From Flavobacteriales bacterium ALC-1 (GTDB taxonomy: Bacteria > Bacteroidota > Bacteroidia > Flavobacteriales > Flavobacteriaceae): DNA of 64,000 nucleotides. Under the pieces are notes generated by a model, which saw only the letters and a program-made list of their open reading frames with translations, did no database searches and was not told the DNA's origin. Shown in pieces: positions 33,570-39,652 of the stretch (position 1 is its first letter; each line of letters starts with the position of its first letter). Made by a program: the position numbers and the translations under genes. Where the stretch lies: contig ABHI01000003.1 in assembly GCA_000171875.1 (NCBI GenBank), positions 434,001 to 498,000 on the forward strand. The letters run 5' to 3'.

Positions 33570-34682
33570 ATGAGTACTAACCAAGTTAACTGCCAAAATT
33601 GTGAGAAACCTTATGAAGAAGGGTTTCAGTTTTGTCCTCATTGTGGGCAGAAAACTAATGATGAACTCACCATTGGAGTACTTTTCTATAATACGATTAG
33701 CAATTACTTTTCTTTTGATGCGCGGTTTCTAAAAAGTTTTATTCCCTTAATGTTTAAACCAGGTTATTTGGCTAAAGAGTTTATTAAAGGGAAGCGTTTA
33801 TTGTTTTTACATCCAGCACAGATGTACTTATTTGTTTCTGTAGTGTTCTTTTTCTTGTTTTCCTTTAATGCTAGACAGCAAGTGCAAAGTTTAGATGAAA
33901 ATTTGGCTAAAACGTTAATAAAGGCAAGTGATACAATTACAGACCAGCATGTACTAGACTCCTTGAAATTTGCTAAAGTGAAAAGAAGAAAAGCTGAAGA
34001 CTCCATCGGAAGGGCAATTGCAAAAAAAACCATGATGGAAACTAGTAAATTTACTGGGATGACCGAAACTCAAATAGATTCTATAATCAATAGTGATAAA
34101 TTTAAAGCCAGTTCTAATAATGGAGGTTTTAATTTTAATTTTGATGATTTTGGTGAAGAAGTTGATTCTCTTATTGCTATAAACGCTCCTGATAAAGAGA
34201 TCTATAAAAAAATGGGAATGAATGATGATGCGGGGTATTTTAAGAGAAAAATTTATGCTCAAGCACTAAAATTTTATAAATCTAGAAAGGGAGGGAGTAT
34301 TTTACAGGCATTTTATGATACCATACCAATAGCCATGTTTTTCCTGTTACCTTTTTTTGCGCTTATACTTAAAATTTTATACTACAAACGAGGAAGATAT
34401 TCACATCACTTAGTATTTAGCTTTTACTACTTCTCCTTCTTATTTACCGTGTTTAGTATTTTGGTAGGTATCGATTTAATATGGCCTGAATTTCCTGGGT
34501 GGATTATAGCGCTCATAACGCTTTCTACCATTTTTTATCTGTTTATTGCCTTGCAAAAATTTTATAGACAAGGTTGGATATGGAGTTTTTTTAAGACTGG
34601 ATTCGTAGCCTTTATGTTTTTGCTGTTTGTTATCCCATTGACCATAGTAATACTAGGAATCTTTGCTTTTATGTTTTATTGA
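33570..34682 (+). CDS. DUF3667 membrane protein with zinc ribbon
   Basis: The 370-residue protein starts with a zinc-ribbon pattern (CQNCEKPYEEGFQFCPHCGQK, C8, C11, C22, C25). The typical DUF3667 region follows (FFYNTISNYFSFDARFLKSFIPLMFKPG, then FIKGKRLLFLHPAQMYLFVSVVFFFLFSF). The charged middle part contains KRRKAEDSIGRAI. At least four C-terminal hydrophobic segments are present (about 247-267, 280-305, 310-330 and 343-368). The family is of unknown role. The protein is in the inner membrane, with the ribbon probably cytoplasmic. Confidence 0.88.
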   Translation: MSTNQVNCQNCEKPYEEGFQFCPHCGQKTNDELTIGVLFYNTISNYFSFDARFLKSFIPLMFKPGYLAKEFIKGKRLLFLHPAQMYLFVSVVFFFLFSFNARQQVQSLDENLAKTLIKASDTITDQHVLDSLKFAKVKRRKAEDSIGRAIAKKTMMETSKFTGMTETQIDSIINSDKFKASSNNGGFNFNFDDFGEEVDSLIAINAPDKEIYKKMGMNDDAGYFKRKIYAQALKFYKSRKGGSILQAFYDTIPIAMFFLLPFFALILKILYYKRGRYSHHLVFSFYYFSFLFTVFSILVGIDLIWPEFPGWIIALITLSTIFYLFIALQKFYRQGWIWSFFKTGFVAFMFLLFVIPLTIVILGIFAFMFY

Positions 34683-34853: not shown

Positions 34854-36515
34854 ATGAAAAAATTTCACATTTTTATTTTAAGCGCAATCAGTTTAACGGT
34901 TTTTAGTCAAGATTTAGCAATTACAGGAGTAATAGATGGACCATCATCAGGTGGTGGTATACCTAAAGCAATTGAACTTCATGTTATTAATAACATTCCA
35001 GATTTAAGTATTTATGGGGTAGGATCCGCCAATAATGGCGGCGGTACAGATGGTGAGGAATTTACATTTCCAGCAGTTTCCGCTTCTTCTGGCGATTACA
35101 TCTATATTGCATTTGAAACTACAAGCTTTACAGATTATTTAGGCTTTTTACCAGATTACAGCAGTCAAGTTGCAGGTATAAATGGAGATGATGCTATTGA
35201 GTTATTTAAAGAAGGTAATGTTGTAGATGTTTTTGGTGATATAAACACAGATGGTTCAGGTGAGCCTTGGGAATATAGAGATGGTTGGGCAATTAGATTA
35301 GATGGTTTTGGACCAAACACCACATTCACACTATCCGAATGGCAGTTTAGTGGCGTTGATGCCACCGATGGTTGCACTAATAACGCAACGTGTTCTTCAG
35401 TTTTTCCAATTAATCCTAACCCTAGAATTAGTCTTATAGAATCTATAAATTCGTTAAACTATGAGTTGGATAATGGTCCTTCTTTTGAAAAAAATATTGA
35501 TGTCGTTGGAACAGGACTCACTAATGATATAATAGTAACAATGCCAATAAATTTTGAAGTTTCATCAACTTCTGGTAGTGCTTTTAGTAATTCTGTTACA
35601 TTACCACCAAGTGGATCTGAAATTTTCGTAAGATTAGCTTCAGGGTTAACGCAAGGTACTTACTCTGGAGATATGACCGCAACATCTGTAGGAGTCTCAG
35701 ATGAAATACTAACATTACCTGGTGATGTTATATCTTCAGACTTTACCGGATTAATAATTACAGCCGTTTTTGATGGTCCATTGTCAGGTCCAGCAGGAAT
35801 AGAACTGTTTGCAAGGCAAAATATTCCTGATTTAAGTGTTTATGGATTAAGAGCACAACGTAATGGTGGACTAAACACTACTGAGCTTTTTACCTTCCCG
35901 TCAGTTTCTATTTCAGCCGGAGAATACCTCTATGTTGCATCTGAAGCTTCAGATTTTAACTCGTTTTTTGGATTTGAACCAGATTATACAACTACAGTTG
36001 TACTCATAAATGGTGATGATCTTATGCAATTATCTGGAAATGGTCAAACTATTGACGTTTATGGTGAGTTTAATCAAGATGGTTCAGGTGAGCCCTGGGA
36101 ATACAGTGATGGTTGGGCATATAGGATGAACAATACTGGGCCTAACTTTGCAAATTTCAACACCTCAAATTGGAGTTTTAGTGGCGTAAATGCCCTAGAT
36201 GGTGAAACCACAAATGCAACTGCAGTAACGCCTGTACCAATCGGGACTTTTGTGACAACATTGTCTACTAATAGTAGCTTATACATTTCTAATTACGGTG
36301 TATATCCTAATCCAACTTCATTAGGGTTTGTTAATATAACGTCAGTAGATTATAATGATATTAAAGTCGCAGTTTATGATATTTTAGGTAAACTAATAAA
36401 AAGCGATGTTTTAATTAATAACAGGTTTAATGTTTCAGATTTAAATACTGGTGTTTACATTCTCAAGATTAGTCAAAATAATACTATAGTAACCAAGAAA
36501 CTTGTAATAAAGTAA
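34854..36515 (+). CDS. T9SS-secreted protein with two lamin-tail-like domains
   Basis: The 553-residue protein has a signal peptide (1-18, ending TVFSQ). Two repeated domains (about 20-170 and 297-445) share the pattern LAITGVIDGP...AIELHVINNIPDLSIYGV...GDDAIELF...DGSGEPWEYRDGWA, which looks like a lamin-tail domain. An Ig-like middle section lies between them. The C-terminal 80 residues (VYPNPTSLGFVNIT, then KVAVYDILGKLIK and VSDLNTGVYILKI...TKKLVIK) are a type-A T9SS sorting domain. The protein is exported by the type IX system and probably surface-bound or released. The cargo function is unknown. Confidence 0.93.
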   Translation: MKKFHIFILSAISLTVFSQDLAITGVIDGPSSGGGIPKAIELHVINNIPDLSIYGVGSANNGGGTDGEEFTFPAVSASSGDYIYIAFETTSFTDYLGFLPDYSSQVAGINGDDAIELFKEGNVVDVFGDINTDGSGEPWEYRDGWAIRLDGFGPNTTFTLSEWQFSGVDATDGCTNNATCSSVFPINPNPRISLIESINSLNYELDNGPSFEKNIDVVGTGLTNDIIVTMPINFEVSSTSGSAFSNSVTLPPSGSEIFVRLASGLTQGTYSGDMTATSVGVSDEILTLPGDVISSDFTGLIITAVFDGPLSGPAGIELFARQNIPDLSVYGLRAQRNGGLNTTELFTFPSVSISAGEYLYVASEASDFNSFFGFEPDYTTTVVLINGDDLMQLSGNGQTIDVYGEFNQDGSGEPWEYSDGWAYRMNNTGPNFANFNTSNWSFSGVNALDGETTNATAVTPVPIGTFVTTLSTNSSLYISNYGVYPNPTSLGFVNITSVDYNDIKVAVYDILGKLIKSDVLINNRFNVSDLNTGVYILKISQNNTIVTKKLVIK

Positions 36516-36615
36516 TATCAAGTTACCATTTTTAGAAATATAAAATGCATAACAAAAAACTAATCTAACAGTTTAATACAGAAATATCCTATAACAAAAT
36601 ATAAACTACTTTTAT

Positions 36616-36861
36616 TTAGTGAAAATTTAAAAGAGCTTGTTGTATTAAACTTATAAAAGCCAATGCTATTCCAAACAAAATTATTGTTTCAAAATCAAGT
36701 CGTGGGCTTAATTTAAAACGTAAAATGTTATTTCTAGACTTGTGAAGTATATGTGTTTCAAAACTTGGGCTACCTCAATTTAACATATATGTAGAAACTT
36801 TTTCCCTAGAGTTTTCTCTAGCTTCAACAACTTCTCTATGATACCCTTTTGGAAGCTCCAT
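36616..36861 (-). pseudogene. Interrupted small membrane-protein gene directly after uvrA
   Basis: An ATG at 36861 lies 1 bp after the uvrA stop codon. The frame reads MELPKGYHREVVEARENSREKVSTYMLN, then a TGA at codon 29, and then continues in the same frame, without another stop, for 52 codons (GSPSFETHILHK..., PRLDFETIILFGIALAFISLIQQ...) to a TAA at 36616. The late part includes a good membrane helix. One base change (CGA to TGA) would explain the stop. It is a probable recent nonsense mutation or sequence error in a small uvrA-linked gene; as it stands it makes a 28-residue peptide. No family was recognised. Confidence 0.7.
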
Positions 36862-36862
36862 A

Positions 36863-39652
36863 TTATAGTTTTTCTATAAGATATTTACCTGTAACAGAGT
36901 TTTTGTTTTTTGCAATCTCTTCTGGAGTTCCAACAGCTACGAGTTGTCCGCCATGTCTTCCACCTTCAGGGCCTAAATCAATAATATAATCTGCACATTT
37001 AATTAAATCTATATTATGTTCAATGACAATTATAGAATGCCCTTTTGATATTAAGGCTTGAAATGACTTTAGTAACTTCTTTATATCATGAAAATGTAAC
37101 CCTGTGGTCGGTTCATCAAAAATGAAAAGTGAATTGTTGCTTTTAGATCCTTTCCCTAAAAAGGTTGCTAGTTTTATACGCTGTGCTTCACCACCAGAAA
37201 GGGTAGAAGAGGACTGTCCTAAAGTAACATAACCTAGACCAACATCTTGAAGTGGTTGTAATTTGTTCTGAATTTTAGTTTGGTTATAAGTTTTAAAGAA
37301 ATCAATAGCATCATCAATGGTCATATCTAAAATATCGTGAATTGACTTGCCTTCAAAATGTACTTCTAAGACTTCTTTCTTAAAGCGTTTACCATTACAC
37401 GTATCGCAGACTAAATGTACATCTGCCATAAATTGCATTTCAATAGTGACTTCACCTTCACCTTTACAGGTTTCGCAACGTCCACCATCCACATTAAAAC
37501 TAAAGTGTTTGGCAGCATAATTTCGAATTTTACTCAGTTTCTGGCCTGCAAATAAAGCTCTGATATCGTCATAAGCCTTAATGTAAGTTACAGGATTAGA
37601 ACGTGATGAGCGACCAATAGGATTCTGATCCACAAATTCTACATGCTGCACAATACTGTGATTGCCCTGCATTTCAGTAAACTGACCAGCTTTATCACTA
37701 AATCCGGTTAATTTCTTTTGTATCGTAGGAAAGAGGATTTTTTTTACCAAGGTACTCTTACCACTTCCAGAAACTCCAGTAATAACTGTAAGCATTTCTA
37801 GAGGAAACGTAACATCTATATTTTTTAAATTATTCTCGCGAGTACCAATAATATCAATGTGATATTTTGACGTTCTTCGTTTTTTTGGAACTTCAATTTC
37901 TAATTGTCCATTAAGATATTTAGCAGTTAAGGTATCTGAAACTAAGATGTCTTTAAAGTCACCAACAGCAACCACTTCACCACCAAAAGTTCCTGCTTCT
38001 GGTCCGATGTCTATAATGGCATCTGCAGCTTTCATAATGTCTTCATCATGTTCAACAACAATGACTGTGTTGCCTAAATCTCGTAAGGATTTTAAAACAT
38101 CTATTAAACGCTCTGTATCTTTTGGATGCAAGCCAATACTCGGTTCATCCAAGATGTACATTGAGCCAACTAAACTACTTCCTAACGAAGTTGCTAGATT
38201 GATACGCTGACTTTCACCACCAGAAAGTGTATTCGACTTTCTATTAAGTGTTAAATAGTTTAAACCTACATTAGATAGAAATTTTAACCTTGTATTAATC
38301 TCGGTTAAGAGTCGCTTAGCTATTTTAGCATCGTACTCATTTAGTTTTAAGTCTTTGAAGAAATTAGCTAATTCATCTAAAGGTAAATCTACAAGATCAG
38401 TTATGGTTGCATCATTAATTTTCACATAATTAGCTTCATCGCGTAAGCGTTTCCCTTTACAAATATTACACTTAGTTTTGCCACGATAACGTGATAGCAT
38501 TACACGATTCTGAATTTTATAGGCCTTAGATTCAAGCTCAGCAAAGAAACTATCTAAGCCTTCAAAGTGTTCATTTCCTGACCAAATTAAAGCTTTATGT
38601 TTTTCACTAAGTTCAAAATAGGGTTTGTGTATTGGGAAATCAAACTTATGCGAATTGTTTACTAATTGATCTCTATACGAGCTCATACTTTCACCTCTCC
38701 AAGGAAAAATAGCGTTTTCAAACACAGATAAAGCGGTGTTCGGCACAACTAAATCATTATCGATACCAATAACATCTCCATAGCCTTCGCATTTAGGGCA
38801 AGCACCATAAGGATTATTAAAACTAAAGAGATGAGCATTAGGTTCTAAGAACGACATGCCATCGAGTTCAAACTTATTATTAAATATTTTTTGCTTTTTG
38901 TCTGAAAGTGATTCGATAATACAAGAACCAACACCTTCAAAGAAAGAAGTTTCAATGGCATCAGCTAGTCTATTTATAAAATCTTCATCTTGTTTGTATA
39001 CAATCCTATCAACAACTAAAAATAGGCGTTTATCTGATTTAATATTTTGCTTTAGAGCATCGTCAATTCTTAAAACGTCGTTTTTAACTTTAACACGTGC
39101 ATAACCTTGTTGTTGAAGTGTTTGTAGTTTGTTTTCAACTGTTCTGCCTTCTTCTAGAATGATTGGAGATAAAAGAAGTAGTTTAGTACCTTCTTCAAAT
39201 TTTGAAATGTATTCAATAACGTCTTTAGTTCGATGCTTTTTTACTAAATCACCAGAAATAGGAGAATAAGTCTTTCCAATTCTTGCGAATAATAATTTTA
39301 GGTAATCATAAATTTCTGTAGTTGTACCAACAGTTGAACGTGGATTGGTAGAATTAACTTTTTGTTCAATAGCTATGGCTGGGGCAATACCTTTAATATA
39401 ATCTACTTTAGGTTTGTTGAGTCGACCTAAAAACTGTCGAGCATAACTAGAAAGGCTCTCTACATAACGCCTTTGGCCTTCTGCATATAAGGTGTCGAAA
39501 GCCAAACTAGACTTTCCAGAACCCGATAAACCTGTAATAACTACTAATTTGTTTCTTGGGATAACAACATCAATATTTTTTAAATTATGCAGTTTAGCGC
39601 CTTTTATAATGATGTTTTCCTTTGGATTAACGTCTAAAAAAGTAGTATTCAT
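36863..39652 (-). CDS. uvrA: Excinuclease ABC subunit A
   Basis: UvrA finds DNA damage in nucleotide excision repair and loads UvrB. The 929 residues have two ABC ATPase halves. The first is Walker A GLSGSGKSSLAFDTL with signature LSGGESQRINLATSLG; the second is GVSGSGKSTLVKK with LSGGEAQRIKLATFLG. Zinc-finger Cys pairs lie between them (CPKCEGYGD, CNICKGKRL, CETCKGEGEV, CDTCNGKRF). Length and layout are normal. A TATCTTTG box lies just upstream. The damaged small gene follows after 1 bp and appears to be in the same transcript. Confidence 0.98.
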   Translation of the reverse strand: MNTTFLDVNPKENIIIKGAKLHNLKNIDVVIPRNKLVVITGLSGSGKSSLAFDTLYAEGQRRYVESLSSYARQFLGRLNKPKVDYIKGIAPAIAIEQKVNSTNPRSTVGTTTEIYDYLKLLFARIGKTYSPISGDLVKKHRTKDVIEYISKFEEGTKLLLLSPIILEEGRTVENKLQTLQQQGYARVKVKNDVLRIDDALKQNIKSDKRLFLVVDRIVYKQDEDFINRLADAIETSFFEGVGSCIIESLSDKKQKIFNNKFELDGMSFLEPNAHLFSFNNPYGACPKCEGYGDVIGIDNDLVVPNTALSVFENAIFPWRGESMSSYRDQLVNNSHKFDFPIHKPYFELSEKHKALIWSGNEHFEGLDSFFAELESKAYKIQNRVMLSRYRGKTKCNICKGKRLRDEANYVKINDATITDLVDLPLDELANFFKDLKLNEYDAKIAKRLLTEINTRLKFLSNVGLNYLTLNRKSNTLSGGESQRINLATSLGSSLVGSMYILDEPSIGLHPKDTERLIDVLKSLRDLGNTVIVVEHDEDIMKAADAIIDIGPEAGTFGGEVVAVGDFKDILVSDTLTAKYLNGQLEIEVPKKRRTSKYHIDIIGTRENNLKNIDVTFPLEMLTVITGVSGSGKSTLVKKILFPTIQKKLTGFSDKAGQFTEMQGNHSIVQHVEFVDQNPIGRSSRSNPVTYIKAYDDIRALFAGQKLSKIRNYAAKHFSFNVDGGRCETCKGEGEVTIEMQFMADVHLVCDTCNGKRFKKEVLEVHFEGKSIHDILDMTIDDAIDFFKTYNQTKIQNKLQPLQDVGLGYVTLGQSSSTLSGGEAQRIKLATFLGKGSKSNNSLFIFDEPTTGLHFHDIKKLLKSFQALISKGHSIIVIEHNIDLIKCADYIIDLGPEGGRHGGQLVAVGTPEEIAKNKNSVTGKYLIEKL

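Follow-up and report, generated by a model that had tools for sequence, protein, structure and literature searches.

The broken reading frame behind uvrA in Flavobacteriales bacterium ALC-1 is, with a probability of about 95%, a decaying pseudogene of a membrane protein of approximately 215 residues that follows uvrA in Winogradskyella, the genus to which this bacterium is assigned. This copy is dead through several lesions, and an in-frame TGA codon is only one of them. It lies in a window of 64,000 nucleotides, which is the whole stretch of DNA analysed (positions 434001-498000 of contig C6 of genome G000) and belongs to a genome of 3.83 Mb in 8 contigs that is 99.57% complete. The features concerned are the following, in window coordinates:

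36863..39652, minus strand: uvrA, 929 aa, intact; the 5' neighbour of the family gene in all 40 carrier genomes of the genus.
36616..36861, minus strand: 5' remnant of the family gene, with the original frame kept to residue ~73; residues 1-71 or 1-73 match those of L003-L006.
36777-36775, minus strand: in-frame TGA at codon 29, where the aligned intact homologues have no stop.
36643..36664, minus strand: frameshift zone, in which the homology moves into another minus-strand frame, as located by tblastn with the L004 and L005 proteins.
36479..36664, minus strand: shifted-frame continuation of the remnant, corresponding to homologue residues ~70-124 (up to 134 with one query), with further stops.
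34854..36515, plus strand: gene encoding a secreted protein that carries a sorting tail for type IX secretion (PF18962, E 1.3e-13), situated where one would expect the lost 3' third and the usual junction with the neighbour.
33570..34682, plus strand: gene for a DUF3667 protein (PF12412, E 2.9e-15).

The ATG of the remnant frame is at 36861, and a single base (36862) separates it from the uvrA stop. Behind the TGA, the frame is open through codons 30-81 and closes with a TAA at 36618-36616. A sequence-only reading of this DNA had described a frame starting 1 base past the uvrA stop, with a TGA at codon 29 and 52 further open codons, and its coordinates are correct. In a search of the 68 Winogradskyella genomes with the remnant frame, in which X replaced the TGA, the copy of genome G031 was matched with E 3.4e-29 and 67% identity over residues 1-73; altogether, 49 genomes gave some match at E <= 10, many of them by chance. 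A chance ORF was considered as the origin of the remnant frame and is ruled out by this identity over 73 residues and its E value. Between the remnant and G031, codon positions 1, 2 and 3 differ at 17, 10 and 33 sites, respectively, over 73 codons (simple differences, counted without a model), which implies that the remnant was under protein-level constraint until rather recently. This retained codon-position bias, together with the 52 codons still open past the TGA, indicates that the decay is not very old. The "good membrane helix" noted from the letters matches the first of two membrane helices predicted for the parent protein.

Beyond the TGA, the gene has lost its frame and its end. When intact relatives are used as tblastn queries, a first piece of homology covers 36861-36643; with L004 and L005, a second piece appears in the other frame, from 36664 to 36512 or 36479, with internal stops. 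The far end of this second piece, which overlaps with the last part of the convergent gene at 34854..36515, is uncertain. Its local alignment score of 79 lies above all 1000 dinucleotide shuffles (maximum 66) and all 991 other pieces of the window (maximum 56), so the shifted-frame piece is not a product of chance. For homologue residues past ~124-134, a profile search against the own genome (E <= 1) finds no counterpart in the window. The single family match that this search returned spans profile positions 1-116, and no second copy of the family was found at the same threshold in this 99.57% complete genome. Some other tblastn scraps occur in the window (E 0.002 with the L006 query at 63027-62812, or 0.013 with the composition correction off); they are taken as chance because the own-genome profile search gave none of them at E <= 1.

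The TGA, the frameshift, the further stops and the missing C-terminal third together define a multi-lesion pseudogene. Translation today from the original start would yield a peptide of 28 residues. The interpretation of the frame as a uvrA-linked membrane-protein pseudogene was right in kind, but the view that it is very recent and that reverting one CGA to TGA change would restore it does not hold, given the frameshift, the additional stops and the lost 3' third.

The surroundings of the remnant have changed as well. In seven relatives compared for their 3' neighbourhood (G031, G042, G063, G047, G008, G056 and G055), the DUF3667 gene is the convergent neighbour of the family gene, at a gap of ~110 bases or less. 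In the window, ~1.8 kb with the type IX cargo gene separate the remnant from the DUF3667 gene. At E <= 1e-5, the loci of these seven relatives contain no match to the cargo protein. Matches at E <= 1e-30, mostly partial, are present in 18 of the 68 genomes of the genus, the own genome included; in those 14 of the others whose uvrA of this type could be placed, the matches are on a different contig or more than 1 Mb from it. By eye, the cargo protein (34854-36515) consists of two similar halves. The convergent secreted-protein gene now fills the place of the lost 3' third, and its arrival may either have cut the family gene or have come after the decay.

A residual role of the shortened gene, as a re-purposed stretch of 28 or 52 codons or as an antisense or terminator element for the convergent gene, appears very unlikely. 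The first 73 residues are well kept and the convergent gene does end within the remnant region, but the interval 36400-36900 showed no terminator-like site, its promoter-like sites are at chance level (4 versus a shuffle mean of 3.3), and the same short form is found in none of the 67 other genomes of the genus. Slightly less credible still is an intact gene in which a sequencing or assembly error created the TGA, a possibility that had been raised from the letters. The sequence rests on one assembly, and the frame is open for 52 codons past the stop; a single base-call fault, however, cannot produce the whole set of lesions, which includes the frameshift, the extra stops and the lost C-terminal third, nor a 3' neighbourhood unlike that of the seven relatives. 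Recoding of the TGA, by selenocysteine or programmed readthrough into a protein of ~80 residues, had also been considered and has the open frame behind it in its favour, but can be practically dismissed: the genome has no SelA match (E <= 1e-5), all seven matches to SelB models fall below the cut-off (best 183.1 versus 242.25 bits), the aligned intact relatives have no stop at the site of codon 29, and the product would contain neither the second membrane helix nor the greater part of the PH-like (pleckstrin-homology-like) fold of the parent protein.

The identity of the decaying pseudogene follows from its relatives. A profile of 17 relatives detects the family in 40 of the 68 Winogradskyella genomes at E <= 1e-15; at E <= 1, the same profile reports 47 genomes, and the 7 beyond the 40 are weak and taken as chance. 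The comparison with uvrA-downstream genes of relatives, which the sequence-only reading had proposed as a check, finds homologues directly 3' of uvrA, on the same contig and strand, for all 40 family matches. These matches start no more than 78 bases from the end of the UvrA match, with the exception of G055, whose best piece starts at profile position 65 and lies 158 bases on. The gap between uvrA and the family gene in the genus is mostly one or a few bases. A second UvrA paralogue of ~54% identity exists in 65 of the 68 genomes (own copy at G000:C5:349893-351167); in the genus, the family gene adjoins only uvrA of the first type and never this paralogue.

Among the 40 genus copies, 36 look intact. 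This number includes G011, which was counted by its complete ORF of 202 aa, though the profile listing showed 2 TAA. The proteins of the relatives mostly have 189-236 aa. From 26 relatives, frames were extracted, 23 of which have 211-222 aa; the others are G031 (186 aa, stopped early), L023 (92 aa, interrupted) and L030 (194 aa). Complete frames at the named loci have 191-236 aa, and L175 has 189 aa. The named-locus frames were sought from ATG only, and L068, L076 and L079 therefore appear short; counted from near the end of uvrA, the frames of L068 and L076 run open for 203 and 199 codons, respectively.

The family is missing from the 28 remaining genomes of the genus, 23 of which possess this uvrA; in the other 5, no uvrA of the first type is listed. 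Behind uvrA, 2 of the 23 genomes end at a contig end and 21 are readable. In 13 of the latter, a DUF3667 gene lies directly behind uvrA (3 to 123 bases), in 6 another convergent gene is present, and 2 show other arrangements. The search for remains of the family gene by tblastn gave scraps with E 0.010-0.050 in 7 of the 21 readable genomes, which are taken as chance because they are far away, on the other strand or short. No publication on uvrA in Winogradskyella was found in a literature search.

Four of the 40 genus copies are broken, namely those of the window, G031, G055 and G062, and each of them carries a different lesion. The G031 gene has one TAA at codon 187, beyond which the conserved C-terminus is still encoded in frame. 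The G055 gene has suffered frameshifts and an internal deletion. In G062 (L023:1780-2234 and L102:1-62, the latter from W. undariae CCUG 63832), an insertion-sequence-like element interrupts the gene behind residue 92; the two parts of the gene are on different contigs, both of which end there. The 5' part continues into an ORF whose start resembles an IS3 transposase (NF033516, E 1e-7, under the cut-off; PF05225, E 2.4e-7). The family gene is dispensable: the genus shows four breakages, each by a different event, and other species lack the gene with no clear trace left. Outside the genus, the Lacinutrix locus L079 has an early in-frame TAA just behind uvrA, where its near relative L076 is open; a further independent loss of the gene is possible there.

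The family also shows a division into two deeply different types, A and B, which was noted at L061, L065-L067 and the window (36616-36861). Type B comprises the window copy, G031, L065, L066 and L067, and it forms a clade with support 100/100 in a gene tree of 39 rows, in which the window row fills 32% of the columns and from which named frames of <= 185 aa, including L106, were left out. On a UvrA tree of 41 rows, made from the C-terminal part of UvrA without L092, L102 and L162, the five type B genomes are scattered: their distribution takes 5 changes, at least 4 of which are forced by well-supported branches. The window UvrA is the sister of the W. echinorum UvrA (99/96), and W. echinorum carries type A. 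This scatter could stem from exchange at the locus or from two ancient tandem copies of which one was lost, and UvrA itself may recombine. In the type B genome G047, a C-terminal scrap of a second copy lies behind the intact gene (L064:6552-6620; profile positions 194-216, E 0.0044).

Outside Winogradskyella, the family was detected in at least 16 of 397 genomes drawn from the taxonomic family (E <= 1e-5) and in at least 15 of 395 genomes drawn from the phylum (E <= 1e-4), the latter with members in other taxonomic families and neighbouring pairs included. Both counts are lower bounds, as 7 candidates per genome were scored. At four of five loci read (L177, L179, L180 and L052), all with distant or unlinked members of the family, the genes next to the member have no relation to uvrA; from their ORF translations, we take them to be guaA-like (L179), cation-efflux-like (L177), AHSA1-like (L180) and argininosuccinate-lyase-like (L052). 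The members at L177 form a neighbouring pair, and the one at L052 is extended at its N-terminus and reaches 328 aa. In a different genus of the same taxonomic family, L175 keeps both uvrA and a DUF3667-like neighbour.

The gene had been suggested to encode a membrane partner of DNA repair. This proposal has adjacency as its only basis: 28 of the 68 genomes of the genus are without the gene, though 23 of them have uvrA, and four members stand beside other genes. As a candidate function, a DNA-repair partner of UvrA is not supported, with the linkage across lineages failing at L177, L179, L180 and L052.

Structure prediction gives another indication of what the parent protein may have been. AlphaFold2 models of a type B protein (L065, pLDDT 86.7) and a type A protein (L073, pLDDT 82.5) both begin with two strands and two long helices, continue with six strands and a helix, and close with a short strand. 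This arrangement corresponds to a predicted PH-like fold in which a pair of helices separates strands 2 and 3. A second-look structural comparison, which covered PDB chains pre-ranked by Foldseek, placed EROS (8kei_D) first for both models, with Z 9.5 over 149 residues at an rmsd of 4.8 and Z 10.3 over 148 residues at an rmsd of 4.3. The next rows had Z 8.4 (helix pair only) and 7.6 (FACT PH-type domain). The rmsd to EROS is high (4.3-4.8), and the likeness comes from the second-look aligner. Foldseek itself gave no match at E <= 0.001 against the PDB for the first model; its top matches were FACT PH-type domains with E 0.05 and above, and EROS was absent among the best 50 matches listed. When PDB sequences were searched with a profile (E <= 1), only 4rng_A was found and not EROS; a distant homology may nevertheless exist.

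EROS, also known as CYBC1, is the chaperone of human NADPH oxidase 2 (8kei chain D) and has the same split-PH topology as the predicted bacterial protein. According to the available text of one report, the PH domain of EROS is split between strands 2 and 3 by an insertion of two integral membrane helices, and the same topology is predicted there for PIGH (PMC9767466). A chaperone action of EROS is stated in the accessible part of another (PMC13296129). Unlike EROS, the bacterial protein has an extra N-terminal segment and no known client protein. The likeness, as far as the models show it, is one of architecture and not of family membership, because the sequence search did not link the families. 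The parent protein would be anchored by two membrane helices within a cytoplasmic PH-like domain and, judging from the fold alone, would work like EROS by binding and stabilising one membrane protein or a membrane lipid. As a best guess, we propose a membrane-anchored PH-like protein that stabilises a single membrane partner.

Profile libraries do not name the family. No Pfam or NCBIfam model names any member convincingly; among 32 members, Pfam matches at E <= 0.1 are weak and scattered over 24 families, mostly of membrane proteins, none of which is a PH family. The STM3941 family (NF041635) matches 7 of the 32 members weakly at E <= 0.1 (best E 1.2e-4), but one member scored 14.4 bits against a cut-off of 40, and L065 and the distant members tested had no match to this model. 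A PH-like fold is shared by the predicted parent protein and the bacterial PH-like domains of PF08000, which form oligomeric rings according to the text available for them (PMC2817789). Among the matches listed in the literature search, no bacterial relative of the EROS/PIGH type of PH architecture was present.

A wider interpretation would combine these observations. The gene behind uvrA would be a bacterial counterpart of EROS, a client-specific stabiliser whose types A and B swap at the locus and which is repeatedly destroyed there, under shifting and possibly conflict-driven selection. We consider this interpretation speculative and rather improbable as a whole.

The locus shows repeated, independent gene death, and probably replacement as well, at one fixed chromosomal site. 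The dead gene of the window is itself ordinary, but it points to a family without a convincing Pfam or NCBIfam name that occurs in several lineages of the phylum. A split PH domain with a membrane hairpin is an architecture known from EROS and predicted for PIGH, and a simple bacterial model of it may exist in this family.
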